From positions 1-36,835 of IMG/VR virus record IMGVR_UViG_3300032084_001130: a stretch of 36,835 nt of DNA; one strand, written 5' to 3'. The notes under the pieces are model-generated. The model was not told where the DNA came from. It saw nothing but the letters and a program-made list of their open reading frames with translations, and did not search any database. The stretch is from a virus. The translations under genes and the position numbers were made by a program. Below, in pieces: positions 7,171 to 30,070 of the stretch. Within the stretch, counting starts at the first letter, position 1; every line of letters starts with the position of its first letter.

Positions 7171-7905
7171 CTATTCTTTAGGATTGAAACTACTTTTGAT
7201 GTCTGATTCATTATACTCATCATCAATATCTTGTTGTGTTAATACATACTCTTCTTCTTCACCTTCTTCACCAGTTGCATCATAACCTTCTCTGTCATTC
7301 CAAAAGTCAGTTAGTTTTACACTGTAAGGGAAAGAATCCATAGACCTCATACTTAACTTCTCAGTTGGTGAAGGGTTTCTTTGGATAACCTCTTTTTCCA
7401 ACTCATCCATTTTATTGATGATTGCGTCCATACCTGTAAGTTTTTGTTCCAATTCTGAAAACTTACCTAATAAGTCATCAATTTTAGAGGATGCTTGTGA
7501 AGCTTCTTCTTTTGCTTCTTCAGTTTTATCAACGATATCTGTTACGTCAACTTCAACTTCTTCATCACCACCCATTGGTTCTTCCATAGATGGCTCATCA
7601 GCAAACTCATCTTCAACCCCCATTTCACCACCAAATGGATCTTCATCCATTTCTTCACCACCTTCTTCAGCAGCAGGTTCTTCAAATGATACTTCTTCTC
7701 CTTCTTCAGGTGTTGGTTCTGCAGCTAAGTCTTCAGGAATATCTACATCTTCCTCTTCTTGCTCAGTTAATTCAGCATCAAAAAGTAATTTGTCTTTATC
7801 ACCATTAGGTACATCACCTTCCATTCCCATCATAAAGGTGTATTCTAAGATTGAGTTAAATCTTTTTAACTGCTCTTTTAATAATTCTTTGTTTTCCTCT
7901 TCCAT
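7171..7905 (-). CDS. Highly acidic protein, probable virion/prohead core component (244 aa)
   Basis: I do not recognise a named family. The 244-aa protein is strongly acidic: residues ~45-125 are dominated by E, D, P and G (runs such as EEGEEVSFEEP), followed by a coiled-coil-like stretch (KIDDLLGKFSELEQKLTGMD) and a C-terminal part with FPYSVKLTDFWNDREGY. The N-terminus (LLKEQLKRFNSILEY) resembles the tag of the proteins at 23694 and 25731 and contains I-L-E at 19-21. A late-type promoter (8112) drives it together with a 59-aa gene whose stop overlaps its ATG by one base, and a terminator follows. Low-complexity acidic proteins of this kind suit a scaffold, prohead core or internal protein. 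That role is inferred from composition and late expression only. Confidence 0.82.
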   Translation of the reverse strand: MEEENKELLKEQLKRFNSILEYTFMMGMEGDVPNGDKDKLLFDAELTEQEEEDVDIPEDLAAEPTPEEGEEVSFEEPAAEEGGEEMDEDPFGGEMGVEDEFADEPSMEEPMGGDEEVEVDVTDIVDKTEEAKEEASQASSKIDDLLGKFSELEQKLTGMDAIINKMDELEKEVIQRNPSPTEKLSMRSMDSFPYSVKLTDFWNDREGYDATGEEGEEEEYVLTQQDIDDEYNESDIKSSFNPKE

Positions 7906-12100: not shown

Positions 12101-14308
12101 TTTATATTTGTTACCATCTTTTATTATTATTTTTTTATCTACACCATAATTAATTACATCACTTGTATTAAAATTTTCTTTAATTGTATCCCTATAATTA
12201 GGTACTACTATATTTGTAGCCGCAACCGCACCATCAATCTGAGCAAAATTAGTTAAATTACCATCACTTAAATTACTATAAGATGATAGTGTAATTGTTC
12301 TTACCAATAAGTTTTTATATAACTCTGTTGGTATTCCTTTACCTTCAATAACATTTGTCCATAGCTGGTTACCGTTATACTCAACATAAGGATTTTTATT
12401 GTAGTCCAATATGTTTATTGGTAACCAATTATCTGTAACATTACCTTGCTTAACTTGTGCAACAAGTTTTCTATTTTGTTCTAATTGTTTAGATGTTTTT
12501 ACATAACCGTCAATAACATCCTCAACAAACTTAATTTCAGGAAATAAACTTTCATCCACCCCATTAATACTACCTAACCAAGTTTCTTTTTCCCCTTCAT
12601 CACCATCTGTTTCATATACCGTAGGCCATGGGTAAATAACTTTACCTGTATTATCTGTATTACCACCTAATACACCATATCTAAACTTACCATTCTCTTC
12701 TGCTTTTTTAGACACATCATAAAGTGATTCCAACATAACTTGTGTGTTATTCATAATAACTTCAAAAGTATTTTGTATAGTCGGATTAAATTTTATTGAT
12801 TTTGAAATTTGCTTATTAATTAATTCAGTAACTTTTTTTAATTTTACTTCTCTTTCTTCTTCTAATTGTTTCTTAACTTTTCGTACACTATCTCTAGTCT
12901 TACTAAAATCATAAACCGTAACTTTTGAAGTCTTACTAAACTTTTTAGATGGTTTTTTCTCTAAAAAATCAAGTAATTTTTCTGGATTAGAGTAGGGTTG
13001 ATTTTCTGATGGTACAAAATCACTGTTAGATGTTGCACTGTTATAGGGTAAAGATCCTTTAGTGTAAAAAGTATTTAGAAATTGTTGTAAGTTATTATAC
13101 TCACCAATAGTTTGTTTGTATTTCTCATTTTGTACTTCAGGAAATAAAGACCCCTCAAATTTATACTCATTTTCTTTCCCTATTGATGTAATATATTTTT
13201 TATATTCTGCAAATAATTTACTACCACTCTTAACATATTCTTCAAACGACCCATTATTACCTTCTGAAACTATGATTATATCTCTAATTGATAATATGGT
13301 ATTAAATACAGTTAATGAAGATGAATTAATTGGACCACTGAAAAATGTATCTGCAGATTTCTTTTGATCTTTGTTTTGGTTTTCATTATTTTGTTCAAAA
13401 ATAATCGGTGCCCCAATATAACTTATCACACTATCAACTATAGATAGTGTAGTATTAATCTCTTTTAATTCCTTAAACTCCGGTAAATTATCTTTAATTG
13501 ATTCTACGTCTAGTTCTATCTTAGATATGTCATTTAAGAAGTCTGATATTAATGGTGTTGCTGATTTAGTACCATCTTTATCAGTGATAGATGTATTCGC
13601 CAACCTATTTTTACCTTCTTCTGTATTTACTACACCAATAACTTGTTGCATTTTAATATCTGATAAAAATGCACTTTGAAATCCAATAAACTTCGCCTTA
13701 ATATCAAAATTACCACTTTCTGAATTAAACTCTGAACTCCATTTTAACATATGTAAACAATATGTAACTGGCTTACCATAATAACCTTTAACAGTTAAGT
13801 TAAAAACAGGGTAAGGCATCTTAAAAAATAAACTATATGGAGATTTCCTATTATCAGCATCAATAATATCAAATAAAGAAGCACCTCTTAAATCAGTAAA
13901 AGTAATATCAACTTGTGGCACTAAACTTGAGTTATAAGTAATATTAATACTTTTAATTCCAAATCCTTCAACAATACCCCCATAATTTTGTTCATCTAAA
14001 CTTAACCCACCTATATCAGTATAATCTGTAGTTGCATAAGATACTCCGTTATTTGCAACTGAACCATCGCTATTATAATCAATTTTAGTTGCAATAAAAT
14101 TAACTTCATTACCATTAGGGTCATCATCACTTTCTATAGATGGTCCTTTACCACTATCATTAAAAATAACACTTCTACTTCTAGGTATTGCTTTTAACTT
14201 AACATAAATAAATAAATCCTCCAACGGAGGAGTTTCTCTTCCGGGTGGGTTTGGATCTACTAATAATAAATGTCCTTTCTCTTCTCCCTTTGGTTTATTC
14301 GATGCCAT
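9170..14308 (-). CDS. Baseplate hub protein with C-terminal GH19 lysozyme/chitinase-type domain (1712 aa)
   Basis: Very large baseplate hub/tail-lysin protein. The first ~250 residues (KMPYPVFNLTVKGYYGKPVTYCLHMLKW) and the region before the lysin (MYFQLDNVPFFKGSYLISSVEHSI, then HMETSFTGLR) look like T4 gp27-type hub strands. Residues ~1493-1700 are a glycoside hydrolase family 19 domain: FLAQCSHES with catalytic E1523, KGRGFIQVTGRKNY at ~1578-1591, and VSRRVNPYEGD near the end. T4 uses gp5 with a different (T4 lysozyme-type) domain for local peptidoglycan digestion; here an unrelated fold seems to serve. The central ~1000 residues are low in recognisable motifs. The start overlaps gp53 by 14 nt. 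Hub assignment is by context and partial resemblance; the GH19 call is firm. Confidence 0.85.
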   Translation of the reverse strand: MASNKPKGEEKGHLLLVDPNPPGRETPPLEDLFIYVKLKAIPRSRSVIFNDSGKGPSIESDDDPNGNEVNFIATKIDYNSDGSVANNGVSYATTDYTDIGGLSLDEQNYGGIVEGFGIKSINITYNSSLVPQVDITFTDLRGASLFDIIDADNRKSPYSLFFKMPYPVFNLTVKGYYGKPVTYCLHMLKWSSEFNSESGNFDIKAKFIGFQSAFLSDIKMQQVIGVVNTEEGKNRLANTSITDKDGTKSATPLISDFLNDISKIELDVESIKDNLPEFKELKEINTTLSIVDSVISYIGAPIIFEQNNENQNKDQKKSADTFFSGPINSSSLTVFNTILSIRDIIIVSEGNNGSFEEYVKSGSKLFAEYKKYITSIGKENEYKFEGSLFPEVQNEKYKQTIGEYNNLQQFLNTFYTKGSLPYNSATSNSDFVPSENQPYSNPEKLLDFLEKKPSKKFSKTSKVTVYDFSKTRDSVRKVKKQLEEEREVKLKKVTELINKQISKSIKFNPTIQNTFEVIMNNTQVMLESLYDVSKKAEENGKFRYGVLGGNTDNTGKVIYPWPTVYETDGDEGEKETWLGSINGVDESLFPEIKFVEDVIDGYVKTSKQLEQNRKLVAQVKQGNVTDNWLPINILDYNKNPYVEYNGNQLWTNVIEGKGIPTELYKNLLVRTITLSSYSNLSDGNLTNFAQIDGAVAATNIVVPNYRDTIKENFNTSDVINYGVDKKIIIKDGNKYKLSDDYNNIDGFTNKTITGNINNDDNLYLIIGPKVDSILDNRNSLDDTIKTNLDNKIKSLKSKEQKSKSDKKDTSKGIFYQNTDSVYRHNISYLVWGGEDKKIYTKLKPSEWEENFTLEISDIDDVDNKDFQNINVLRVKSDDKEKTLTESQLWTGNTSEKSRAFLMLNTLPFIRFEDVLEKYVTKNDLNEKKVSKVIDIPKLYMVWVGSLLWRINQTDDPIKSSGEIEVGSKTEYIKSLGGSWKESESFKKEMKLNTIIPRKTQEHLIEYFENWVESKSSWEEFLDGVKEYKNTIQNIQKDKSNKLRNFLDDVIQVGIPTPKAFTGNNFNIEITETNLKSYLDMFRVGFEEFAKENEPDSSDDSGNGVEDDSKQKTLNDNSIKLAFYNYFKEIYNKWIGGTEDGRVFNVCGANSRNKDGQPKDLIDYFRFINRAWSDIGNKAVCNLNSVVSLAGETKLDLYLYISKVLRDSNFLFQILPSYINYKNVLEVEEAFTPITNIDDRFDTGPTYVCILAGGQSKVLSIDEDKRYQYKDDGFNLFERGQEPKDFNPTGVDLTNKLVAFRVAFGAENQSVFKNINLNQEEHQATGEYFRQLSELVDKRGGTQRVLKGNDLYDLFSTRSYKCKVSGLGNMNIQPLMYFQLDNVPFFKGSYLISSVEHSITPNHMETSFTGLRQSIYTVPVEDSITTFLNVDLNEVDEIAQRLKVSNFTSSQTNFNFQIIDPTDTFSETKLSVESLNDLFVSGSGIGASNINKTLLSNALKKWLPRYGITTNSQVCNFLAQCSHESLNFNPGWVIEKWNNPEPDNNGVATNGSSDQLNYEKPSEIAKELGNTKTGDGLRFKGRGFIQVTGRKNYENLTGDTTTYEGNTTVGDKLFKGITTEYNTKDGYLKIDKLFDATTQEGVDRCLIASLIWWKNSGVGKLPNGTVAEAQTVSRRVNPYEGDKKQNKRIQKLEKLVDYFNLKTDYIGGAENTA

Positions 14309-18244: not shown

Positions 18245-18254
18245 TTATAAATAT
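18245..18254 (-). promoter_or_regulatory. Late-type promoter element (large baseplate gene)
   Basis: Minus-strand ATATTTATAA followed by TAAAAAGAAA, 16-25 nt before the ATG at 18229. It is among the best matches to the consensus shared by eight units. Confidence 0.72.
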
Positions 18255-18444: not shown

Positions 18445-20586
18445 TTAAGTCCCTACAAGGGCATCTTTACCTGGTCTTTTACCATCACCAATCATAGCAT
18501 TAACACCAGCAATAATTTGATATTTTACGGATTCCATCATTTCTTTTTTATCTTGTTCAGTAAAAGAAATAGTTTCTGAACTACCATCCATAGAAATATT
18601 GATATTACCGAAATTAATTGTCCCACTAACATCTAATTTTTGATTTGAGTTAACTGATGATAATAATTTTTTAGAATCACCAGCAGCGATTAAATCTCTA
18701 CTATCTAATTTTTGATTTGAGTTAACTGATGATAATAATTTTTTAGGATCACCAGCAGCGATTAAATCTCTACTATCTAATTTTTGATTTGAGATAACTG
18801 ATGATAATAATTTTTTAGGATCGCCAGCAGCGATTAAATCTCTATTATCTAATTGAAAACTACCAAAACTACCTGTCAACACTCTATTATCATCTCCTGG
18901 TCCTGAATATAAATCATATGCTTTTTTTCTCGGAGCTGCGGCAGCAGGTTGTTGATTTAGAGGTTTCCTTACTGATGCTGCACCACCTTGCTGACTCTGT
19001 TTTTTAGTCCAATTTTTTATTGTAAGAGTATTAATATTATTTGCTGCAATCGACTTAATACTTTGTATGTTAGTAATCATACCACTTTTAATCATATCAC
19101 CTAAATCTTTACCTAAACTATCTATTCCTGTTAACTTTAATGCATTTTTAGCTTCATTAATTAAATTATCTGCAACGGCCTGTGTTGCCGTCTGCAATTC
19201 AATCATAGGGGATTTCAATTGATCTTCAACCTTACCATAAACATCTGTTTTAATTACTATTCCTGTTTGAGTTGCGTTTAGTATTGATTGTAATGTTTCA
19301 TTAGTTGTCATCACACCTTTAGCAGTTTGCATTATTGCATCTTCCTCTGTTGACGGAGTGGCAAGTGCTTGTTCTATTTGATCAGTATTTAAGTCTTCTA
19401 CAGGAACCGCTTGTCCACTAATATCTACTTTCCATTGACCCGAAGTTTTATCGAACTTAGCAAGTGATGAAATCTTATCCATAGTATCTTCATCGAAAAG
19501 ATTTCCACCAACGTCCATTTTGATTCTCTGCATTTTGTTCATTTGGAATGCCGTGTCAATAAGTCGTTCTTTGTTTATCCCTAAAGCATCTGCCATACCA
19601 ATTAACCTTTGTCTGTTTTCAGCAACCATATCGAATTGTCCAGTTTCTTCATTAAACTGAACCATACCTTTTGTTGCTTCACCTACTTTTCTAGCGAACT
19701 CTTCTGGTGCGTTTCTTGCATCAAACATCATCTGCATTGGGTCACCAAAAGCCGATGCCATTTCACCCCCTAATAATTGCAAGTTAGCTGCTGCTTCAAT
19801 AGCTGCTTCTGGTTCATAGAATCTATCTGCCATACCCAACATATCAGAGACATCCATTCTCATCTTAACAGCAAGTTTTGACATTTCAGTCATAGCTTTT
19901 ACACCACCTCTGAAAGACATTCTTTGCATATTCTCAAAGTTGTCAGATAAAACCTTAACTACTTTGGATGAGTTTAACCCTAATTTTTGAGAGTCTTTTA
20001 CTATTTGGTTAATATTCTCTGCAAATTGCTCCGAACCAATACCAATTAAATCAAACCTCTCTGCTAAAGCCGTTGCGGAATCACCCATAAGTCCAGTTGC
20101 TTGTTCTATGGCAAATATTCTTTGTACTTCCTCATCGTCTAATATTCTTACCCTACCGGATTGATCAGCAAACTTAGAGTAAATGGTGTTAACATCATCT
20201 ATATCACCACCAAGTCTTTGTACCAACATTACAGACTTATTAAACTCATCCCCTAATATCTTTTGGTTTTGGTATCCAATACCAATATTAACTGAAGTTT
20301 GCTTAAATGCCTTCGCTAATTTTTCCCCTAACCTATATTGAGCGTCTAAACTTTTACCAAACTTATATATCTCGGTATATACACTAGCAAAAGACTGAGC
20401 AATACCATCTACTAACATCTTTCCTTTACCAATTTCAGTTACAAAAGAACCTGCAGCAGATGAAGCATTATTAAGTGGTCCAGATAAACCAGCAATTTCT
20501 TTTTTAAGACAACCAATAACCTCACCAACAATATTTAACGGGGTATTTTTATCAATTTTAGGTAAATTATTACAATCTACTGCCAT
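18445..20586 (-). CDS. Tape-measure-like tail protein with C-terminal repeats (713 aa)
   Basis: Probable tail tape-measure or tail-length protein. It is almost entirely helical and rich in A, K, Q and G, with hydrophobic heptad-like stretches (SKVVKVLSDNFENMQRM, AAIEAAANLQLLGGEMASAF). The N-terminal region (GEVIGCLKKEIAGLSGPLNNASSAAG) and its place just before the baseplate genes agree with this role. At about residues 579-650 three near-identical 24-residue units occur, each containing RDLIAAGD and KKLLSSV. The segment before them is Q/A/P-rich (QQPAAAAPRKKA), like a linker. A tape measure should scale with tail length; 713 aa is modest. Its ATG follows a 32-aa frame with a GAGGAG sequence just upstream, one of few Shine-Dalgarno-like sequences in the window. 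Confidence 0.72.
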   Translation of the reverse strand: MAVDCNNLPKIDKNTPLNIVGEVIGCLKKEIAGLSGPLNNASSAAGSFVTEIGKGKMLVDGIAQSFASVYTEIYKFGKSLDAQYRLGEKLAKAFKQTSVNIGIGYQNQKILGDEFNKSVMLVQRLGGDIDDVNTIYSKFADQSGRVRILDDEEVQRIFAIEQATGLMGDSATALAERFDLIGIGSEQFAENINQIVKDSQKLGLNSSKVVKVLSDNFENMQRMSFRGGVKAMTEMSKLAVKMRMDVSDMLGMADRFYEPEAAIEAAANLQLLGGEMASAFGDPMQMMFDARNAPEEFARKVGEATKGMVQFNEETGQFDMVAENRQRLIGMADALGINKERLIDTAFQMNKMQRIKMDVGGNLFDEDTMDKISSLAKFDKTSGQWKVDISGQAVPVEDLNTDQIEQALATPSTEEDAIMQTAKGVMTTNETLQSILNATQTGIVIKTDVYGKVEDQLKSPMIELQTATQAVADNLINEAKNALKLTGIDSLGKDLGDMIKSGMITNIQSIKSIAANNINTLTIKNWTKKQSQQGGAASVRKPLNQQPAAAAPRKKAYDLYSGPGDDNRVLTGSFGSFQLDNRDLIAAGDPKKLLSSVISNQKLDSRDLIAAGDPKKLLSSVNSNQKLDSRDLIAAGDSKKLLSSVNSNQKLDVSGTINFGNINISMDGSSETISFTEQDKKEMMESVKYQIIAGVNAMIGDGKRPGKDALVGT
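18637..18852 (-). repeat. Three 72-bp in-frame tandem repeats in the tape-measure-like gene
   Basis: Units at 18637-18708, 18709-18780 and 18781-18852 encode 24 residues each (consensus begins LDSRDLIAAGD, ends SSVNSNQK). Units 2 and 3 differ by only a few bases; unit 1 is slightly more divergent (N for S, I for N). The near identity at DNA level suggests recent duplication. Confidence 0.88.
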
Positions 20587-20688: not shown

Positions 20689-21336
20689 TTATTTCATTTC
20701 TACAATTCTATAAAAACAATCTTCTTTTTCTCCCTCAATAGGATTAACAAAAGGATTTTTATATCTACTATATATTAAGTTCACATCACCTTTTTGTTCT
20801 CTGTAAATGTCTAAGTTAGAGTACTCTAGTTTAATAAACATGGTGTCTGGAAAACTGTTTGTTTTTAATATTAAATATTTTTCTGATTCATTAACCTCCA
20901 TAACCTTAAAATACATTGTACTAACTAAGTTTCTTTGAAACTCTGGAGATTTCATTTTCTTTATATCTAAATCTACTTTTTTCTTAAACTCAATAACGAT
21001 TTTTTTGAATGGTAGTTGTTTTTCCTTTTTTTCCTCTAATTTAGCAATTAATGATTTTAATTCTGCAATTTCAGAAGTTAATTCAGATATACCTGTAATA
21101 ATGTCTTCTTTAGAAGTAGACTCCATATCCTCAACCTCTTTTTCTTTACTGATTAATGCTTTACCAGCTTTTTTTAAGGTTTGAGTTGCAACTAATGTAG
21201 GTATATAGGATTTACCTTTAGTTAATAATCTTAGTAGTTGAAGTATTCCAACACCCTCACTTAATAAATTGTCAACACCATTATTTAATTCTTCAATTAA
21301 TAAATCATGTTTTTTTATTTTATCGTTTAAGTCCAT
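20689..21336 (-). CDS. Unknown tail-region protein with coiled coil (215 aa)
   Basis: Not recognised. Residues 1-110 are helical and coiled-coil-like (DKIKKHDLLIEELNNGVDNLL, then ITGISELTSEIAELKSLIAKLEEKKE). The C-terminal ~90 residues look like a small beta domain (TMYFKVMEVNESEKYLILKT, FIKLEYSNLDIY, FYRIVEMK). It has its own late-type promoter 13-22 nt upstream and lies between the gp26-like genes and the tape-measure-like gene, the usual place for tail assembly or baseplate hub factors such as T4 gp28/gp29 neighbours. A virion or assembly role is inferred from position. Confidence 0.78.
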   Translation of the reverse strand: MDLNDKIKKHDLLIEELNNGVDNLLSEGVGILQLLRLLTKGKSYIPTLVATQTLKKAGKALISKEKEVEDMESTSKEDIITGISELTSEIAELKSLIAKLEEKKEKQLPFKKIVIEFKKKVDLDIKKMKSPEFQRNLVSTMYFKVMEVNESEKYLILKTNSFPDTMFIKLEYSNLDIYREQKGDVNLIYSRYKNPFVNPIEGEKEDCFYRIVEMK

Positions 21337-21375: not shown

Positions 21376-21561
21376 CTACTCTTCTTTTGGTTGTAACATA
21401 CCTATGAAGTTGTTTCTTTGCCATGTGGGCATAGATAATACATCGGAATAAGAAAATCCTTTAGTAACTAGAAATAGTATTTGTGTTTGAATTGCTTGAA
21501 GGTACTCAGAGTTCAGGCCATAAAAAATTTGATCCGATTCTAAGAAATGTGGCAACCTCAA
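21376..21561 (-). CDS. Small tail assembly frame overlapping the gp26-like gene (up to 61 aa)
   Basis: A short frame overlapping the 3' end of the gp26-like gene by 56 nt in the +1 frame. The product contains IQTQILFLVTKGFSYSDVLS and MPTWQRNNF, a pattern I associate with C-terminal parts of tail assembly chaperones. There is no ATG at its start. Either TTG 21561 or TTG 21555 would serve; an AAGGAGG on the minus strand (21570-21564) sits 8 nt before the latter, an unusually good Shine-Dalgarno for this genome. Alternatively, ribosomes could shift +1 from the gp26-like frame at the T6 run at 21527-21522, producing a fusion. The function is uncertain. Confidence 0.6.
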   Translation of the reverse strand: MRLPHFLESDQIFYGLNSEYLQAIQTQILFLVTKGFSYSDVLSMPTWQRNNFIGMLQPKEE

Positions 21562-22291
21562 CCCCTCCTTGGATTGTCGCAGTTGTATTGAAATCTATAC
21601 CTGGTTCTAAATCAGTAATATACTTTCTAAGTGCTCTACTATCCTTCAGTGAAAGTTTTTTAATGATAGACGATAATTTCATCTTATCTCTATCATCATT
21701 TATTTGCATAATTTGTCTTTCTAACCTTAATGTAATTTTTTGAGAAACTTCATCTCCATTTCTTTCCATTAAAGTTTCATCTTGCTGATCAATTTCTTCC
21801 TCATCCTTACCAGTTAAGAATCTAAACTTAACCTTATATTTTGATTGTGGTAACTCAAAATCAAACTCACCATTTTCATCTGGTTGTACACTTAATTTCT
21901 TTTGTTTTAATGAAGGTAAATCAATTTCACCTGCAACAACTTTACCACTATTAGGGTCTAGTACTGCTTGTGTGTATTTATCCCCTAAACCAGTTGATCT
22001 TAAAAATATTAAAATCGCCATTCTATCACCTTCTAGTAAATCTTTAGTATCAAAACCTAAGTCTTTAACTTTTCTTTCTAAAAGAATATCTACTAATTTA
22101 CCGCTATTAATAATGTTTTGTGACGATAGTATATTTTCATCTATCGTTGTTAAATAAGAAACCTTAACTGAGGATTTTTTATTCTTATATAAAATACCTT
22201 GTGATGGTAATTCTAATACATCGTATTGTTCTTTATATTCATCCGGCACGAAATTCGGATCCATATTTGCTATGTGAGGACTTTGTTCCAT
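21506..22291 (-). CDS. 26: Baseplate hub / tail assembly protein, gp26-like
   Basis: A 261-aa protein resembling the T4 gp26-type baseplate family. Diagnostic features are LELPSQGILYKNKKSSVKVSYLTT near the start, DENILSSQNII, and LLEGDRMAILIFLRSTGLGDKY, the pattern of this phage family. T4 gp26 is 208 aa and works in baseplate hub assembly. The C-terminal half (GKDEEEIDQQDETLMERNGDE, then LKDSRALRKYITDLEPG) is charged and helical. Its own late-type promoter lies 14 nt before the ATG. The 3' end overlaps a small frame (21376-21561) with a T6 run in the overlap. Assignment by motif memory, moderately sure. Confidence 0.72.
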   Translation of the reverse strand: MEQSPHIANMDPNFVPDEYKEQYDVLELPSQGILYKNKKSSVKVSYLTTIDENILSSQNIINSGKLVDILLERKVKDLGFDTKDLLEGDRMAILIFLRSTGLGDKYTQAVLDPNSGKVVAGEIDLPSLKQKKLSVQPDENGEFDFELPQSKYKVKFRFLTGKDEEEIDQQDETLMERNGDEVSQKITLRLERQIMQINDDRDKMKLSSIIKKLSLKDSRALRKYITDLEPGIDFNTTATIQGGVEVATFLRIGSNFLWPEL

Positions 22292-22470: not shown

Positions 22471-22494
22471 TTTATTTATTTATTTATTTATTTA
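22471..22494. repeat. Tetranucleotide repeat, six TTTA units
   Basis: Six perfect TTTA units on plus (TAAA on minus) fill the gap between the 400-aa gene, whose stop codon is the last unit, and the 45-aa gene. It is intergenic except for that stop. Changes in unit number would alter only spacing and not reading frame. Confidence 0.85.
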
Positions 22495-23694
22495 TTGGTA
22501 TTTGGGGTCACCGAAAGTACTTTTAAATGATTCTTTACCGCCAGATTTAATACTTTCTTTAGCATCTTTTATATTTCCTTTTATTATATCAATATATTTA
22601 TCATACCCCTTAGCTTTAAAGTAACTCATCCCTAAGTCCTTAACATTTTGAGCCTGTGTGGCAGTCATACTCCCTTCATCAACTAATTTCTGTAAAATTT
22701 TATCATCAACTTCTTCACAATCACCAGCAATTGCTTTTATCCAACCACCTGTAAGTATGTTTACTATATTTCCAATTAATGGGTCTGCATTCAAACTTTC
22801 AACTATTTTAGATAACGAATTTACTTGATGTTTTTCCCATAAAGATTTTTCTTCAGGACCCCAACTTGAGATTAAATTGTTAGTTTCTTCATCACCAAAT
22901 AACTCACACCTAATAGTTTTATAAGCCCAACCATAAATCCATGCTTGTGCCCATAGATAAACAAAAGTCTTTACCCAAGGGGATTTACCTCTAAACGCTT
23001 GACGAATATTAAGTGGTGTTAATATTTGAAGTGCCCTCAAAAGTTCATCTGATTGATCTTTAGTATACCAAGACTTAGTTGAGGACAATATTTTTTTAAT
23101 GGTATTAATACCACTATTAATATGTTTAATAGTGTCTGATACTGACGTTAATATTTTTTTAACGGAAGGTATGTCATAACCAGTCATTTTACTAATGAAA
23201 TTGATATTATCATCTGTTAATTTATTACTAGGTAACATTAAAAGTTTTTTAGTGCTTTCTATATTATTAGAAAGTGCTGGTAAATTTGTTGAGATGTCAT
23301 TAAATAATTTTGTATTTTCAGGTTTTGATATAGAAGGATCAATTTCTAATGCATTAAAATACTCTGTAATATCATCCATTATCTTTTTATTATCACTAAG
23401 TATTTTATTCACTTCACTTATCTTAGGGTTTGTGTTAATGTCAGGCAACCCTTTTAATTTTTTAATATTTTCGGTAACATTATTTGCCCATTCAGAAGCA
23501 TTAAAGTTTTTTATGAATTTCGCATCGTCTAATTGAGTCCTTAACTTACCAAAATTTACGTCCATACCAACCACTAGTTTTTTTAACTTAGATGTGACAG
23601 TTGATTCTGTAATTAAATCTATATTTTTACCATAAAGAGTTTCTTCAGACATTAACTCTTTTATTCTTTTTATTTGTTCGTCTAATTTTTTCAT
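22492..23694 (-). CDS. Tagged late protein of unknown function (400 aa)
   Basis: Not recognised. Its N-terminus (MKKLDEQIKRIKELMSEE) is one of the shared tag helices, with I-K-E at 11-13 and L-D-E at 4-6. The rest is mostly helical, lysine-rich and repetitive in feel, with a hydrophobic, tryptophan-rich centre (WVKTFVYLWAQAWIYGWAYKT at about 245-265) and a second hydrophobic stretch (ADPLIGNIVNILTGGWIKAIAG). These could insert into or lie on a membrane. The protein ends in a G/S/K-rich tail. It is the last gene of the three-gene late operon started at 25731. By tag and composition it could be a packaged, injected protein; this is inference. Confidence 0.78.
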   Translation of the reverse strand: MKKLDEQIKRIKELMSEETLYGKNIDLITESTVTSKLKKLVVGMDVNFGKLRTQLDDAKFIKNFNASEWANNVTENIKKLKGLPDINTNPKISEVNKILSDNKKIMDDITEYFNALEIDPSISKPENTKLFNDISTNLPALSNNIESTKKLLMLPSNKLTDDNINFISKMTGYDIPSVKKILTSVSDTIKHINSGINTIKKILSSTKSWYTKDQSDELLRALQILTPLNIRQAFRGKSPWVKTFVYLWAQAWIYGWAYKTIRCELFGDEETNNLISSWGPEEKSLWEKHQVNSLSKIVESLNADPLIGNIVNILTGGWIKAIAGDCEEVDDKILQKLVDEGSMTATQAQNVKDLGMSYFKAKGYDKYIDIIKGNIKDAKESIKSGGKESFKSTFGDPKYQ

Positions 23695-23707
23695 AATCTA
23701 TGTTTTT

Positions 23708-24409
23708 TTACTTATTACATTTTCCCATTTTACCTAATTCTTCATGAAATTTTCTAACTAAAGATTGTGTAGAAATACTAACGTCTGTAATTTCTTCATA
23801 TAATTTATCACCATATTCATAATAATACTCTTGACGTAATTTACAAAAGTCTTCTTTATTATTCATATATTTTCTAACTATGGTAGTTATTTGTTTAAAA
23901 TCTTCATCATCAACATTATATGACAATAAATCTTCTAATTTTTCTATGTCACCCTCAAAGTCTAAGGTATTATTTGTATTACTACCCTCTTTTTTTGTAG
24001 AAGAATCTATTAAAAAATCATTTAATATGTTCCAAGAAGTAATTTTTCTATAAAGTATATTTTTCTCACCTTCAACCAACCTAAAGTTACTTATTTTAAT
24101 TGACGTACCAGATAGTTCTACATCATCAGTAGTAAAAGTGGTGACTGAATTGTCTTTATCTTGCGTTACATTTAATTGCATATAATTATCATCATAAAGA
24201 TAAATAATTATGTTATAATTCCCTATTTTTTTATTAAATGTTATAAGACAAATATTACCGTCCATTTCTGATGAGACAAATCTATACCCATCTTTTTCTA
24301 TTATTTCTTTACAACCTTTTAGGAAATCACTTTTTAAGTAACATTCTTCATTTTGTTCTTTTATTAGAAAAAGATTTTTTAATTGATTTTCCGTTATTTT
24401 AATTTTCAT
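23708..24409 (-). CDS. Tagged late protein of unknown function (233 aa)
   Basis: Unrecognised 233-aa protein. It begins with a tag helix (MKIKITENQLKNLFLIKEQN) whose I16-K17-E18 fits a prohead-protease site. The following ~110 residues look beta-rich (ICLITFNKKIGNYNIIIYLYDD, TTFTTDDVELSGTSIKISNF), and residues ~150-233 are helical and acidic (FEGDIEKLEDLLSYNVDDEDF). It starts 2 nt after the LysM protein's stop and is followed by the 400-aa gene after 13 nt, so the three are one operon. Four cysteines lie outside the tag, with no clear metal motif. Confidence 0.78.
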   Translation of the reverse strand: MKIKITENQLKNLFLIKEQNEECYLKSDFLKGCKEIIEKDGYRFVSSEMDGNICLITFNKKIGNYNIIIYLYDDNYMQLNVTQDKDNSVTTFTTDDVELSGTSIKISNFRLVEGEKNILYRKITSWNILNDFLIDSSTKKEGSNTNNTLDFEGDIEKLEDLLSYNVDDEDFKQITTIVRKYMNNKEDFCKLRQEYYYEYGDKLYEEITDVSISTQSLVRKFHEELGKMGKCNK

Positions 24410-24411
24410 AA

Positions 24412-25731
24412 TTATTTTATTTTTAATGTAGTGCCCTTATATATATGTTCAGGTGAAGGTGTTTCTCTACCTTTACAGTAAGTTTTATTACATGTTTTTA
24501 CACCACCATATTTTTTTTGTGTTTTCTCTATTATATCTCTATTTTTATCATATAATTCTGTCCATTTCATACCATACTTTTTTGCAATAGACGAAAGGTT
24601 TTCTCCACTTTCTATTACATGGGCGTCAGAGGAACCAATAGGTCCAACAGTAGACCAAAACTCATCATCACTCATTTCACCACCATTTTTTTCAATCGAA
24701 TCTATAAGTTGTAAATGTTCATTTTCTCCCATTTTTTCTAGTTCCTTTGATTTTTTTGAATCGGTAATCATAGATATATAAGTTTCTTGTGTTTTAGAAC
24801 TTTTAGTCTTTAGGTATGACTCAATACCTTTAGTCAAACCAACCATACCAGCAACAGAGACACTTTGAGCAATAATGTTTGATATTAATTTCTTTGTTTC
24901 ATTAGCATTTAGTGCTTTATATATGTCGCCACCATTATCTTTTAATATCTTATTAAAATCTTTAGAACCGATTAGTGTTCTTAGTTGGTATTTTTTCAAT
25001 CCAAATTTTAACATAAACTTTTTAGTGAAGTCATTAAATCTACCCATATTTTTAATCCCTTCTTTAGCTTGAGGGGTACTTAATATATTTATCACCTCAC
25101 CCAACTGTTTCTTTTCAACATCTGAAAGTCCTTTAGAATATTTTTCAATAACTTGATCAACTTTCTTAATATCACCTTTCTTAATACTTTGTTTTGATAA
25201 TTCCTTTAATATATTATCTGTATTTTTCATAACACCTTTAGATGCTTTAGTCAAAGCTTTAAATTCAGTTACTCCAGGTATAATACCTAACGCAGATAAT
25301 CCGGCAAACCCTAATGACGCACTTGCCTTACCTAATTCACCTTTACTTGAATGGTGAATTGCTTCACCTAAATATACTACTGAGTTAATTAAATCTAAAA
25401 CACCTGAAGCTGCAGTACCTATAACTGGCACAACAGAAACTGCCATTGAAACATTGTCAACAACACAATGTCCGTAATCCAACCAACTACTTTCATCTCT
25501 CAATTTAGAACAATCAAACACATCATAAATAAGATTACCTAATGCTTTCATGGATTCTTGATCTTTTTTACGAATTGCTTTATACATATCCGTACCGGGC
25601 CTATCAGGCTGTCCTGGCATTAAGTAATCTGGTTTCTGTTCATTTAACAAAGATTCGGTTTCTCTTAAAACCTCTTCGTTTAAGAATATCCTATTATATT
25701 GTGATTCAGTTATTTTTAATACCTTTTTCAT
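24412..25731 (-). CDS. Tagged late protein with glycine/alanine-rich hydrophobic region and C-terminal LysM (439 aa)
   Basis: The protein has four visible parts. A tag helix covers residues 1-31 (KITESQYNRIFLNE, then LRETESLLNEQ), with (I/L)-x-E triplets at L17-E19, L22-E24 and L29-E31. Residues 94-155 are small and hydrophobic (SMAVSVVPVIGTAASGVLDL, GFAGLSALGIIPG), resembling pre-toxin/translocation regions of polymorphic toxins. A long lysine-rich helical middle follows. Residues ~371-439 are a LysM peptidoglycan-binding domain (HVIESGENLSSIAKKYGMKW, then PEHIYKGTTLKI), with a cysteine-bearing insertion. It opens a three-gene operon with a late-type promoter (25749) just after the tail-tube terminator. 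No catalytic motif is seen. Delivery of a wall- or membrane-acting protein is a possible role, inferred. Confidence 0.82.
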   Translation of the reverse strand: MKKVLKITESQYNRIFLNEEVLRETESLLNEQKPDYLMPGQPDRPGTDMYKAIRKKDQESMKALGNLIYDVFDCSKLRDESSWLDYGHCVVDNVSMAVSVVPVIGTAASGVLDLINSVVYLGEAIHHSSKGELGKASASLGFAGLSALGIIPGVTEFKALTKASKGVMKNTDNILKELSKQSIKKGDIKKVDQVIEKYSKGLSDVEKKQLGEVINILSTPQAKEGIKNMGRFNDFTKKFMLKFGLKKYQLRTLIGSKDFNKILKDNGGDIYKALNANETKKLISNIIAQSVSVAGMVGLTKGIESYLKTKSSKTQETYISMITDSKKSKELEKMGENEHLQLIDSIEKNGGEMSDDEFWSTVGPIGSSDAHVIESGENLSSIAKKYGMKWTELYDKNRDIIEKTQKKYGGVKTCNKTYCKGRETPSPEHIYKGTTLKIK

Positions 25732-25748
25732 TAAGATTAAGCTTTCTT

Positions 25749-25758
25749 TATAAATATC
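25749..25758 (-). promoter_or_regulatory. Late-type promoter element (tagged three-gene operon)
   Basis: Minus-strand GATATTTATAAAGAAAG, 17 nt before the ATG at 25731 and just downstream of the tail-tube terminator, so it starts a new transcription unit. Confidence 0.68.
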
Positions 25759-25772
25759 GTTACAAACAAAAA

Positions 25773-25796
25773 AAGCCCTCCAATAATGGAAGGCTT
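25773..25796 (-). terminator. Intrinsic terminator after the tail tube gene
   Basis: Arms at 25773-25782 and 25787-25796 form a 10-bp stem with one mismatch and a 4-nt loop. On the minus strand it ends GGGCTT and is followed by a T-tract (TTTTTG...). It is the clearest rho-independent terminator in the window and separates gp19 from the tagged operon. Confidence 0.9.
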
Positions 25797-25832
25797 AATA
25801 TAATATTTTTTCTTATATTTGATAAAGGAATA

Positions 25833-26321
25833 TCAGAACACGTTGATTGCTCTATCAAATCTTAAAGTGCAAGTAATATCTGCTAAATCAGAAGATGAAT
25901 AATCTAAACTACCGAAGTCAGCATCATTTAATTGTGTACCTTGTAAAATCCATTTTTGTACCACAACTCCAGTTGGATCTAACATTTCTAATTCTACATC
26001 TTTTTTATAACCTGCAGCATAACCTTGTCTACCTGTTACTGATTCAGAGTGTAATCTAACCCACTCCATTAATGCTTGTGTTGCTGATGGACCGATTGGG
26101 TCTCTAAATGTTACTGAAATACTTTCCCACTTAAATCTACCAATCACATAAGTTGATGTATTAAGGAAAGGAATTTCTGTTTCGTCACTTGTATATTTTG
26201 GTCTAGATGCTGTTGACACCCACCACTCTTGAATACCCAATTCATCAGGGAATCTTAATATAAATCGATTCTTTCTTAACGGCTCGTAAGGTACGGGCAT
26301 TCTCATTAACATATCTGCCAT
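25833..26321 (-). CDS. 19: Tail tube protein gp19
   Basis: Major tail tube subunit, 162 aa against 163 for T4 gp19. It starts MADMLMRMPVPYEPLRKNRF and contains RFPDELGIQEWWVSTASRP, FKWESISVTFRDPIG, QALMEWVRLHSESVTGRQGY and a C-terminal DLADITCTLRFDRAINVF, the standard order of the family. It follows the HAD gene in the tail-sheath cluster, has a late-type promoter ~40 nt upstream, and ends at a strong terminator, giving it a separate, abundant transcript as expected for a major virion protein. Confidence 0.95.
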   Translation of the reverse strand: MADMLMRMPVPYEPLRKNRFILRFPDELGIQEWWVSTASRPKYTSDETEIPFLNTSTYVIGRFKWESISVTFRDPIGPSATQALMEWVRLHSESVTGRQGYAAGYKKDVELEMLDPTGVVVQKWILQGTQLNDADFGSLDYSSSDLADITCTLRFDRAINVF

Positions 26322-26357
26322 AATTCTATTGTTTTAATTTGTTTTTATTCTTTTTAT

Positions 26358-26370
26358 TTATAAATATTTA
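26358..26370 (-). promoter_or_regulatory. Late-type promoter element (tail tube gene)
   Basis: Minus-strand AAATATTTATAAATAAAAAG, 37-50 nt before the ATG at 26321. The core is nearly palindromic here (TATTTATAAATA), but the A-rich AAAAAG flank lies on the side expected for minus-strand transcription. Confidence 0.62.
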
Positions 26371-26382
26371 GTTTTCAAAAAA

Positions 26383-27201
26383 TTATCTTTCGATTACTAT
26401 TCTTTTCTTCTTTGGGTTATTAGGGTCAGATGTATCATAAACTAAAAACCTTACACTAGGGTAAGCTTTCTTTAATTCATTATTGATATAATCTTCTGCC
26501 TTTTTAACATTTCCTAAGTCATCATCACTAAATCCCACACTTAATCCTTTGTATTCTGGATTTATTTCTAATTCCTTAGCCGCCTTTACAACTCTACTAA
26601 CAAAATCTCTCAGTGCAATTGTTTTAGCAATTTCAGGATTTTCAGCACCACCTTCAGCACCAAACTTTTCCTTAAACTCATCTGAAGATACTCCGTGATA
26701 ATCTTGTAATGATAAATACTCATCTATTGATGAACCTCTTAGGTTATCTAACATAGTTTGTTTTTCATCATCACTAAATGTCATATCGATTAATATTCTT
26801 GTACCATCTCTAAGTGCTTTTGGTGATTGTCCTCTTGCAGTGATAATAGAAAAATCATTACCATAAATTAAAGCTTCTTTGAACTTATCGAAACTAGGTC
26901 CAAACTCACCAGCCTCAATTGCTTTCTTAGTATCAACAATAAAAGCACCATAATCTCTAAAATCAGCAAATGCCTCTAAAGGGTTATCGTTTAATAATCT
27001 ATATTCCGTACCTACCAAATGTCTCATTTCAGCAAACTCTGAAGTAGAAACATCTACTGGAACATAGTCATCACCAACCTTCTTCTCTAAGTGAATATGT
27101 GTTGGCATATTAAGAATGTTATCATCCCAGTCAAAAGAGTATGCTCTTTTTTGAAACTCTAACAATGTCTTATACTGTGATTCTGTTAATTTTAATTTCA
27201 T
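26383..27201 (-). CDS. Tagged HAD-superfamily phosphatase-like protein (272 aa)
   Basis: HAD-type hydrolase placed between sheath and tube genes. The catalytic pair is D24/D26 in SFDWDDNI, the motif II threonine is T121 (SIITARGQ), a candidate motif III lysine is K194, and the metal-binding acids are D226-D228 (GFSDDDLGN). Together these are a full set, so an active phosphotransfer or phosphatase enzyme is likely. The first 15 residues (MKLKLTESQYKTLLE) are a shared tag helix ending in L-L-E, and the HAD fold begins right after it. The substrate is unknown: nucleotide 3'-phosphate, sugar phosphate or protein are possible. A GAAA-loop hairpin lies just upstream, and no late element precedes it, so it is read through from the sheath gene. 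Confidence 0.85.
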   Translation of the reverse strand: MKLKLTESQYKTLLEFQKRAYSFDWDDNILNMPTHIHLEKKVGDDYVPVDVSTSEFAEMRHLVGTEYRLLNDNPLEAFADFRDYGAFIVDTKKAIEAGEFGPSFDKFKEALIYGNDFSIITARGQSPKALRDGTRILIDMTFSDDEKQTMLDNLRGSSIDEYLSLQDYHGVSSDEFKEKFGAEGGAENPEIAKTIALRDFVSRVVKAAKELEINPEYKGLSVGFSDDDLGNVKKAEDYINNELKKAYPSVRFLVYDTSDPNNPKKKRIVIER

Positions 27202-27253: not shown

Positions 27254-30070
27254 TTAAATATTATCGAAGTTAGCACCTGTGTTAGTGATATTAAACTCAA
27301 CGCTGATGTATTCTAATGATCTTGTTGGTTTAATAAAGATTCTACCATTTAACTCATTTCTATCAATAGATTCTGGATCGCTGTCTACTTGTACTCTAAA
27401 GTCAGTTAAACCTCTTTCCTTTCTAATGTTATCCAATATTGGATTTACTAATGATAAGAATTGGTTTCTTACAACATCATCATTTTGTTCAAATAATAAT
27501 CTGATAGAAACTGCTGAAATAAGTTTTCTAGCTTGTAACAATAATCTTCTAACGTTGATTCTGTTAAGTGCCGTTTCTTTTTCTTGTAATGTTTTGTTAC
27601 CCCAAATTACTACACCCACATCTGAGAATGTTGCCATTGGGTTAATCATACCTTCATATAACGTATCTCTTTGGTCTAAAGTCAATTTAGTTCTCGCTTT
27701 AATTGCATTTGTTGTACCTCTATTGATACCTGCTGTAGCAAACCAAGGGAAAGCAATATTATCTGTAAGTGCAATGTTCCTAACAACCTCTAATGTTGGT
27801 GGTAACCATACATATTGGTTATTCTCAGTATCTTGCATCTGTAACCAAGGGAAGTAAGTAGCGGAATAGTTAGAATCAATTCCTGAATCTTCAATTACAT
27901 CAACTGCCTCATCTGGAGTTAGTGCAACTAAACCAGAACTATCAGTATCAGGAGTTGTGATTACATATAATGAATCTGCCCTTTCTTCTTCTACCATATC
28001 GATAGCTTCTTCTAATAAAGTGATGTTATCTCTTGAATCGATACCTGGTGTTGCAAATACATTAATGTTAACCGCTTCTGGGTTAGCGAAAGTTCTAATA
28101 CCTTCGAAGTATGCGTACCAGTCAGAATCTAAACCATCAACTTCAGTAGAAGTAACTCTCGATTCAAATGTACCTGAATCTAATCCTAATGTTGCTTTAC
28201 TACCATTGATTTTATATCTGTCGTCATTTGTTCTCTTAGTTCTATAAATGTCCCAACCATCAAATCCACCAAATGGTGCTAATGTGAACTTTCTAGAATC
28301 TAATCTTTCATAATCTGTATTATTTAAGTCAGCGTCATTTCTAAACTCAGCGTTACCTACTTGGAAAGTGTTAGATACACCTGCAATAACTGTAGTTGTA
28401 ACACCAGAGTCCATATGGAAACCATCTGTTCTACCTGTCCAAGCATCTGCTCCTTTATAGTTAAAGAAATCTTGATCTACACCGATATCTGTACTTAAAC
28501 CTAAGTAAGCTTTTCTTTTCTTCTCATTGTTTGTGTAAGAAGTTTTATATTCGATTAATGGAGATTTAGCGGTTCCATTACCGCCCTCATATTCTCTTAC
28601 AGTAACACCTTCAAATCCTGCAGGGAAAGCGTCTTCTGGATACTTATCTGCCATTTCAACCATAATGTATTTACTTCTTAATACGAACTCACCATCTGCA
28701 GTACCAATTTTTCTACCAATAAATCCACTATCTGTTGGGTTCATAGAAAGTTTTGAGAACTTCTCAACAATAACTGGTCTAGAGTCATCATCATAAAACT
28801 TTCTTACAACTAAGTCAAAAGTTCTATCATCTGGTTTAATGTTGATGATTGAAACTTTAATATCTTCGTTTGCTGCATTACCATCAGAAATTGTAATTAA
28901 TCTAAATAATCTAAATAAATCATTACCTCTCAATTCAGATAATACATAAGGAGTAACTGCTGAAGTATACTCTTCATTATAATCATCTAAGTTACTAGCG
29001 ATTTGTATAATAGTAGAGTTAATACCTCTTACTTTACCATCTGCGTTTAAGTCATCTAAACTATTTTTATATATTTCTTCTACAAATAATTCTGAATCTT
29101 TATCTAACGCAGAAACACCTAATACTTTAGTAATATAATTTTTCTTAGTTGTATCAAAAGATACATTATAAGTAAATGTTTCACTATCTCTATTTGTTCC
29201 TGTAATTGTGAAAGTTGCTAATGGATCTTTTTCTATTGTGTCTGCGTCTGCACCTTCAATATCAACTGAAGTTGCTGCACTAACAGGAACATCAAACTCC
29301 ATTTCTTCATCAGCGTTTACTGAACCTCTACTTCTTAGAGTAGCGACAACACTTCCTTCTACATCACTGTAAGCCGTACCACTATATTGTACATATGTAC
29401 TAGCTGAAGTTGTACCTGTTACGATTGATGGGTCAGAACCAGAAGTACCTTGAGCAGTTACTACTAAGTTGAATGTCGCCCCTGCGAAATCACTTCCTGT
29501 TTTAACATATTTTGCTGAGTCTACAGAAATAGACTCACTAACTGAAAGGTTTCCTAAGTTACTAAACTCACTTGTTAATTCACCATCATTGTATAAATCT
29601 TCAATACCTGAAGCTGATGCGTCCCATACAATACTTGTAGGTGTACCAGCAGTAGATGCTGAATAAGTCATAGCTAATGGTAATGTAGTATCAGCAGCAG
29701 TTTCTACAACTGTATCTGGATCGATAGCTGCGTCAATAGTAAGTGACCATGCCCCACCTGCTTTATATCCTGATAAACCTAATACTCTTGACACATACAA
29801 TTGGTTTGTTTGTGATAAGAATGATTTAGCAATATAGTTTAATTCATATTTTTGAAATCCAGTCCCCTCAAACTTCTCACTATTCAATCCACCAAAATAC
29901 TTTTGGAACTCATCATAGTCTGAAATAAATACTGGTTCAAATGCTGGACCTTTAGGAGTTTCTCCCACTAAACCTAATGTGGTAACTCCGACTTGTCTTG
30001 TGACAAATGTTAAGTCCTTTTCTGAGGTGAATACACCTGGACTTACAAAAATTCTGTCTGTTGATGCCAT
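27254..30070 (-). CDS. 18: Tail sheath protein gp18, enlarged
   Basis: Contractile tail sheath subunit. The N-terminus (MASTDRIFVSPGVFTSEKDLT, then VGVTTLGLVGETPKGPAFEP) and the C-terminal ~300 residues (NINVFATPGIDSRDNITLLE, AFPWFATAGINRG, RINVRRLLLQARKLISAVSI, FIKPTRSLEYISVEFNI) are typical sheath. It has 938 aa compared with 659 for T4 gp18. The extra length sits in residues ~105-560, which are rich in S, T, D and V with beta-strand patterns such as FDVPVSAATSVDIEG and TYNVSFDTTKKN. This looks like surface domains inserted on the sheath. A late-type promoter lies 44 nt upstream. It is the start of the gp18-HAD-gp19 cluster. Confidence 0.95.
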   Translation of the reverse strand: MASTDRIFVSPGVFTSEKDLTFVTRQVGVTTLGLVGETPKGPAFEPVFISDYDEFQKYFGGLNSEKFEGTGFQKYELNYIAKSFLSQTNQLYVSRVLGLSGYKAGGAWSLTIDAAIDPDTVVETAADTTLPLAMTYSASTAGTPTSIVWDASASGIEDLYNDGELTSEFSNLGNLSVSESISVDSAKYVKTGSDFAGATFNLVVTAQGTSGSDPSIVTGTTSASTYVQYSGTAYSDVEGSVVATLRSRGSVNADEEMEFDVPVSAATSVDIEGADADTIEKDPLATFTITGTNRDSETFTYNVSFDTTKKNYITKVLGVSALDKDSELFVEEIYKNSLDDLNADGKVRGINSTIIQIASNLDDYNEEYTSAVTPYVLSELRGNDLFRLFRLITISDGNAANEDIKVSIINIKPDDRTFDLVVRKFYDDDSRPVIVEKFSKLSMNPTDSGFIGRKIGTADGEFVLRSKYIMVEMADKYPEDAFPAGFEGVTVREYEGGNGTAKSPLIEYKTSYTNNEKKRKAYLGLSTDIGVDQDFFNYKGADAWTGRTDGFHMDSGVTTTVIAGVSNTFQVGNAEFRNDADLNNTDYERLDSRKFTLAPFGGFDGWDIYRTKRTNDDRYKINGSKATLGLDSGTFESRVTSTEVDGLDSDWYAYFEGIRTFANPEAVNINVFATPGIDSRDNITLLEEAIDMVEEERADSLYVITTPDTDSSGLVALTPDEAVDVIEDSGIDSNYSATYFPWLQMQDTENNQYVWLPPTLEVVRNIALTDNIAFPWFATAGINRGTTNAIKARTKLTLDQRDTLYEGMINPMATFSDVGVVIWGNKTLQEKETALNRINVRRLLLQARKLISAVSIRLLFEQNDDVVRNQFLSLVNPILDNIRKERGLTDFRVQVDSDPESIDRNELNGRIFIKPTRSLEYISVEFNITNTGANFDNI

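Follow-up and report, generated by a model that had tools for sequence, protein, structure and literature searches.

Unrelated late proteins of a T4-like phage probably carry interchangeable, cleavable capsid-targeting propeptides that end in (L/I)-x-E

The IMG/VR record IMGVR_UViG_3300032084_001130 is a 36.8-kb piece of a T4-like myovirus genome (36,835 nucleotides, analysed whole and called the window here; the record ends where the window ends), and its late region encodes four proteins that have unrelated bodies and begin with short peptides, or tags, containing (L/I)-x-E triplets. All late genes of the window are on the minus strand, among them genes for large baseplate proteins; toward coordinate 1 lie gp32, UvsX, gp41 and NrdA, which we identified from their sequences and read as early. 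The G+C content of the window is 27-35%, and K, E, I and L abound in its proteins. A sequence-only reading made earlier from the DNA letters had proposed that the four proteins share a capsid-targeting tag cut by a prohead protease; the open reading frames (ORFs) do start where it had put them, and encode a HAD-like protein, a LysM protein (PF01476) and two proteins without a known family, p233 and p400 (Table 1).

The N-termini up to the predicted cut (marked ↓) are MKLKLTESQYKTLLE↓F in the HAD-like protein, MKKVLKITESQYNRIFLNE↓E in the LysM protein, MKIKITENQLKNLFLIKE↓Q in p233 and MKKLDEQIKRIKELMSEETLYGKNIDLITE↓S in p400, the first three being of one tag type (A) and the last of another (D). 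The claim that they are tags in common is borne out by a profile trained solely on the HAD tags of other phages, which scores the LysM and p233 N-termini at ~6 bits, and by the regular expressions (regexes) for the tag types, which match three window N-termini for type A and one for type D where the internal density of matches leads one to expect 0.1 and 0.0. Triplets of the form (L/I)xE end at residues 7 and 15 of the HAD-like protein, 9, 19, 24 and 31 of the LysM protein, 7, 18 and 38 of p233, and 6, 13 and 30 of p400. The earlier expectation of a triplet near the N-terminus thus held in all four proteins, but the LMSEE of p400 contains no strict (L/I)xE; its likely cut is ITE30↓S and not LMSEE, since its type-D relatives keep an (R/T)LYGN element behind which the leader usually ends in (L/I)xE before Q, G or S. 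Pattern searches of viral contigs returned no relatives of p400, the LysM protein or p233, apparently because the bodies change too fast, and nearby genes in HAD loci served instead; for the LysM protein, tagged proteins with diverged bodies were found in L004, L008 and L041 (L and G numbers are our handles for loci and genomes).

Table 1. Coordinates of tagged proteins, predicted tags and neighbouring features in the window
Feature	Coordinates	Strand	Evidence or remark
HAD-like ORF	26383-27201	-	
Type-A tag of HAD-like protein, residues 1-15, predicted cut LLE15↓F	27157..27201	-	Triplet before core in 19/19 distinct near orthologs; pLDDT <50 over residues 1-16
HAD-like phosphatase body, residues 16-272	26383..27156	-	Alignments, AlphaFold, Foldseek
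LysM ORF	24412-25731	-	
Type-A tag of LysM protein, residues 1-19, predicted cut FLNE19↓E	25675..25731	-	Further triplet LLNE31↓Q behind
LysM protein body, LysM at residues 371-397	24412..25674	-	Pfam PF01476, E=6e-5
p233 ORF	23708-24409	-	
Type-A tag of p233, residues 1-18, predicted cut LIKE18↓Q	24356..24409	-	
p233 body, no known family	23708..24355	-	
p400 ORF	22492-23694	-	
Type-D tag of p400 (EQIKRIKELMSEETLYGK...), residues 1-30, predicted cut LITE30↓S	23605..23694	-	
p400 body, no known family	22492..23604	-	
Candidate fifth tag, p215 residues 1-27, possible cut LLSE27↓G	21256..21336	-	Weaker evidence
p244, acidic, adjoins gp32	7171..7905	-	EQLKR and ILEY near N-terminus; weak candidate
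Tail sheath (gp18)	27254-30070	-	
Tail tube (gp19)	25833-26321	-	
gp26-like hub protein	21506-22291	-	

The tag recurs on dozens of unrelated accessory proteins in relatives of this phage, where the sequence-only reading had proposed to look for it. Applied to every ORF in the loci and genomes collected, the HAD-tag profile gave 26 distinct N-terminal matches on non-HAD proteins with a 6-bit threshold and 36 with a 4-bit one; it reached 6 bits only 13 times in ~627,000 internal residues, and these high-scoring internal matches come mainly from one family with a genuine tag at residue 30, plus one 962-residue protein. Three further tag types were recognised, B (e.g. MKKLIRKILKEE), C (e.g. RLTESDLKRIVKRVLTEE) and D (e.g. 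NEEIERIKSLFTEERLYGNL), whose regexes match N-termini far beyond their internal density. Type D is present on 19 distinct proteins, and its (R/T)LYG(N/K) element is strongly conserved behind a Glu-rich helix (e.g. window 23605-23694, L029:12229 and L021:15534). One genome, G003, has about 14-17 tagged genes. Pfam assigns no function to most tagged bodies; the cargo includes an M23 protein. No isolate with tags A-D was found, tblastn of the short tags against phage isolates giving no match, and the literature we searched, which is not all of it, holds no earlier description of these tags.

Two of the internal matches are of interest in themselves. The family with the tag at residue 30, from the G009-like relatives (L065:465-968, L068:3547-4050, G011:11661-12257), has an N-terminal LLAE↓T leader ahead of the type-A tag, giving two targeting-like elements per protein. 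The 962-residue tagged protein (L008:6765-9650) carries another complete type-A tag, MKNKIIITESQYKRLFLEQ, at residue 730, and resembles two fused cargo proteins with an internal cut site.

The triplet is constrained in position relative to the tag. An [LI]xE lies within 14 residues behind the tag core in 25 of the 30 distinct non-HAD type-A proteins, against a mean of 7.4 and a maximum of 15 in 2000 rounds of shuffling, and a mean of 3.4 and a maximum of 10 in internal segments; the residue that follows is Q in 14 of the 25. A census of [LI]xEQ in 766 predicted proteins, those of the window and of six genomes, has its peak at residues 21-30 (2.7 per 1000, vs ~0.4 beyond residue 150). Both in the type-A proteins and in phage HADs, the peptide ends in (L/I)-x-E just ahead of the body.

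The HAD-like protein is encoded by 80 viral-contig loci. Among near HADs, the 32 residues that lead up to the conserved RAYSFDWDDN core contain [LI]xE in all 19 distinct forms, with 5-15 residues between the Glu and the core, and the HAD motifs D24-x-D26, T121, K193 and D226-D228 are invariant in a near set of 35 sequences (T121 nearly so when huge phages are added). The AlphaFold model has a mean predicted local distance difference test score (pLDDT) of 81, falling below 50 at residues 1-16, and its first core strand starts at residue 18, three residues past the predicted cut, in agreement with the earlier statement that the fold begins right after it. Neither Pfam nor the PDB, searched by sequence and by fold, gives the body a significant match, and every PDB match had an E of 0.09 or more. 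Foldseek matches the body to viral predicted structures (E down to 1.7e-7), which include a PNKP phosphatase-domain and an RNA-repair HAD-domain protein, and given these structural neighbours a role in nucleic-acid end repair is a reasonable guess and no more.

Beyond phages, the HAD core is found mainly in Kiritimatiellae, Lentisphaerae and other Verrucomicrobiota (L215-L293), where it is widespread; the similarity begins at the core and amounts to ~40% identity. Genes for VanZ, a metallophosphatase and an extracytoplasmic function (ECF) sigma factor are neighbours of one bacterial copy, on a contig of 1.4 Mb; the bacterial copy that was tested has no Pfam family. The bacterial proteins serve as a tagless control: [LI]xE falls within 32 residues before the core in 46 of the 47 distinct phage forms, a count well above their own shuffles, but in only 1 of 40 distinct bacterial forms. 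Distant phage HADs (at least 585 matches) bear other leaders, T4-like MIKKFNQFIKES..., MKRSLILTERQLTKLIKE..., MNYKKIVREIISE... and FNKKILKEG... among them, and in the huge-phage genome G040, where types A-D stay near background, the T4-like HAD leader MIKRFESFIEESK is similar to the MIKKYNDFILESK and MKLKKYNQFVNEE of other G040 proteins. Judged from these sequences, the leader follows the genome and not the cargo, and the HAD protein has the look of a cellular-type enzyme that the phage lineages have each fitted with a tag of their own. A tagged phage HAD of 61% identity also occurs on L214 (QCKH01000012.1), a 51-kb contig in the Prochlorococcus single-cell genome AG-409-L21, which is possibly a hint of the host or a co-sorted virus.

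Tags and bodies are exchanged. Within one genome, L041:8681 (tag A) and L041:14449 (tag D) both continue as ...E↓QRRP(L/F)QSLKRAFTAG, with 66% identity. L028:1974 (A) and L029:12229 (D) both continue as ITE↓GAGWKALWQAVKT, with 61% identity. Conversely, the D tags of L002:3109 and L010:11292 are 88% identical over 25 residues on bodies without further match; since they differ by silent as well as amino-acid changes, a D tag of this kind on unrelated bodies is no fresh DNA copy. From swap pairs in both directions it follows that tags and bodies have been exchanged, with the join at the triplet, and that one type of short N-terminal peptide is found on proteins with unrelated bodies.

Several relatives encode the machinery that such a tag would need. 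A gp21-family protease (Peptidase_S77, E about 1e-26) is present in G003, G004, G009 and G011, and the family also in G043 and G045; homology to T4 identifies gp20 and gp23 in G003, G009 and G011, and position and composition point to a gp22-like protein there as well. In G003, gp21 is at 39534-40223 and the gp22-like gene at 40338-41840. The gp23 proteins of these three genomes have LLTE↓A, LINE↓Q and LINE↓A, respectively, ahead of the region matching mature gp23*; in G003 the site has its Glu at position 60, and position 71 is aligned to residue 27 of mature T4 gp23*. (The 20 short contigs in which gp23 was also sought are fragments and thus uninformative.) In G003, tagged genes are found also at 1.7 to 34 kb, adjoining gp20/21/22/23. 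Flavobacterium phage immuto and Microcystis phage Mel-JY01, two cultured phages related through their capsid protein, both have a prohead protease, with IVSE↓A and LISE↓A in their gp23. Tag types A-D were not seen in the parts of these two genomes that were examined; immuto has other tag-like N-termini, e.g. MADNFNLRSFLTENKLTKNAQLLKEGS and MENFDLKKFLVENKLTTNSKILKENS. Separately, in a huge-phage lineage (G038, G039, G040 and G041; L296-L299) weak Peptidase_S77 matches lie inside ~700-residue ORFs, as if a prohead protease had been fused to a larger head protein.

Using orthologs of window genes (a census based on T4 had too few homologs and was replaced), we found tags A-D on 0 of 24 distinct orthologs of the window's early proteins and on 0 of 184 distinct orthologs of tail, baseplate and neighbouring structural-cluster proteins. 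The sequence-only reading had named an N-terminal motif equally common in early cytoplasmic proteins as fatal to its proposal; the proposal passes this check, though on a small early sample.

Elsewhere in the window, the possible fifth tag is on p215 (ORF 20689-21336), whose orthologs have LLNE↓Q, NINE↓G or LLKE↓S near the same place, and two distant orthologs of p244 have an N-terminal stretch ending in NLEE↓Q or NLTE↓Q; p244 may, tentatively, be a head-core protein. The motif TATTTATA is found on the minus strand at window positions 18246, 21350, 22306, 25749, 26359 and 30114, which are 14-44 bases upstream of the genes for a 1195-residue baseplate protein, p215, gp26, the LysM protein, gp19 and gp18, and in several relatives the 60 bases ahead of gene starts contain it clearly more often than control AT-rich words; the motif is possibly a late promoter common to tagged and structural genes. 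A 713-residue protein (18445-20586) has tandem ~24-residue copies (LDSRDLIAAGDPKKLLSSVNSNQK) in its C-terminal part, and a 1712-residue baseplate-like protein (9170-14308) has a chitinase/lysozyme-like domain near residues 1450-1595, resembling tail lysozyme.

Together, these results make it likely that the N-terminal stretches are cleavable, lineage-specific capsid-targeting propeptides, similar in function to the capsid-targeting sequences of T4 and not homologous to them in sequence. Every prediction of the capsid-targeting proposal that could be computed, namely recurrence, absence from early and tail structural proteins, the triplet, the swaps, a protease in relatives, the gp23 site and the start of the modelled HAD core, came out in its favour. 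The tag would bind the scaffold or core of the T4-like prohead, and the tagged protein would be enclosed; during head maturation the gp21-family protease would cut after the Glu and the tag would leave, and the mature HAD-like phosphatase, the LysM protein and the others would stay with the DNA and be delivered to the next host.

Several points weigh against this interpretation. Head genes and the gp21 protease are not in the window and were seen only in relatives whose HAD is ~46-62% identical, and the tagged genes of the window sit within the tail cluster, away from head genes. The early control rests on a small sample, the 24 orthologs, and the tag-type regexes were devised after the N-termini had been inspected, although the same regexes served in the internal-position control. 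The tags are unrelated in sequence to the MKTYQEFIAE of T4. Finally, the core of tag A holds an (L/I)-T-E of its own (residue 7 in the HAD-like protein), and because of this second triplet the exact cut in tag A is not certain; the later one is favoured since several HADs, such as the G009-like group with its IITK, lack the core triplet and retain the later one.

The position within the tail cluster suggests that the tag might instead dock its protein to another part of the virion, such as the tail tube, hub or baseplate, with the triplet as part of a binding helix and not a cut site. The tagged genes of the window do lie between gp18, gp19 and the gp26-like hub gene, and LysM and M23 cargo would suit a tail that has to cross peptidoglycan; we nevertheless regard docking as unlikely, given the tagged genes beside the head genes of G003, the resumption of homology at the triplet in differently tagged bodies, and the match of the P3-P1 pattern to the gp23 site. 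We give still less credence to a tag that loads the prohead by binding the scaffold and then stays on, or is cut in some proteins only: conservation of (R/T)LYGN downstream of the first Glu-rich stretch of type D would allow a lasting role, but nearly all distinct phage HADs retain the triplet, and it is the linker behind it that differs in length. It is very improbable that the N-termini are leftovers of recombination, or a common translation-start module, with no targeting role, for although tag swapping between bodies is the expected outcome of recombination at gene starts, no early or tail gene of these genomes is tagged, the triplet is constrained in position, and the same D tag on unrelated bodies has diverged silently and in amino acids. 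Chance can be rejected: the AT-rich window and its K-, E-, I- and L-rich proteins invite Lys/Glu-rich helices, but internal regions of the same proteins give expected counts near zero and shuffles never attain the observed triplet counts.

We lean toward the broader view that each of many uncultivated T4-like lineages has an interchangeable set of N-terminal loading codes of its own, by which some ten to twenty unrelated proteins are placed in the head, including an enzyme-like HAD with relatives in Verrucomicrobiota. Head-carried, injected proteins are known for very few phages because purified virions are needed to find them; here the injected effectors would be readable from the genome as whatever follows a tag ending in (L/I)xE. 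A recognisable tag, a predicted cut site and a tagless bacterial control would allow cargo to be predicted for a large group of aquatic phages known from metagenomes only, and would point to proteins of first-minute counter-defence or takeover among hypothetical genes. It would also mean that there are loading peptides beyond the single one of T4, and that cargo keeps its body while exchanging tags.

Among known systems, the PNKP-type and RNA-repair HAD phosphatase domains are comparable to the window HAD through the viral Foldseek matches and the intact HAD motifs, and differ in that the window HAD is without a significant Pfam or PDB match. In phiKZ and SPN3US, a Glu-directed prohead protease removes from inner-head (ejection) proteins N-terminal propeptides that probably target them to the head (PMC5694885), a likeness in the removal itself; those propeptides are mostly >100 residues long and have another cleavage motif, and we found no related tags here. 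T4 Alt (MELITE↓LF) and gp24 (LLRE↓S) are examples of the triplet by itself behind quite dissimilar leaders, although these leaders are not common to several proteins. The closest parallel is the capsid-targeting sequence of the T4 internal proteins IPI, IPII and IPIII. For T4 it is established that gp21 cleaves behind L/I-X-E and that ten N-terminal residues of IPIII are enough for packaging; an Asp at position 10 prevents processing yet leaves targeting intact (PMC9026906). IPI is an inhibitor of a restriction system, and infection of one E. coli strain depends on IPIII (PMC9391042). In the T4 sequences the triplet is found in IPII/IPIII (FIAE↓A), gp24 and gp23 (FLTE↓A). As in T4, a short N-terminal peptide with (L/I)-x-E at its end is present on unrelated proteins and absent from early and tail proteins, and a gp21-family protease and a gp23-type capsid are encoded, here in relatives. 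T4-like tags were seen in huge-phage lineages, and those of the window are of types A and D. In contrast to T4, the tags described here are 15-30 residues long instead of about 10, several types occur per genome, and the cargo includes large proteins, an enzyme-like HAD, and LysM and M23 proteins.

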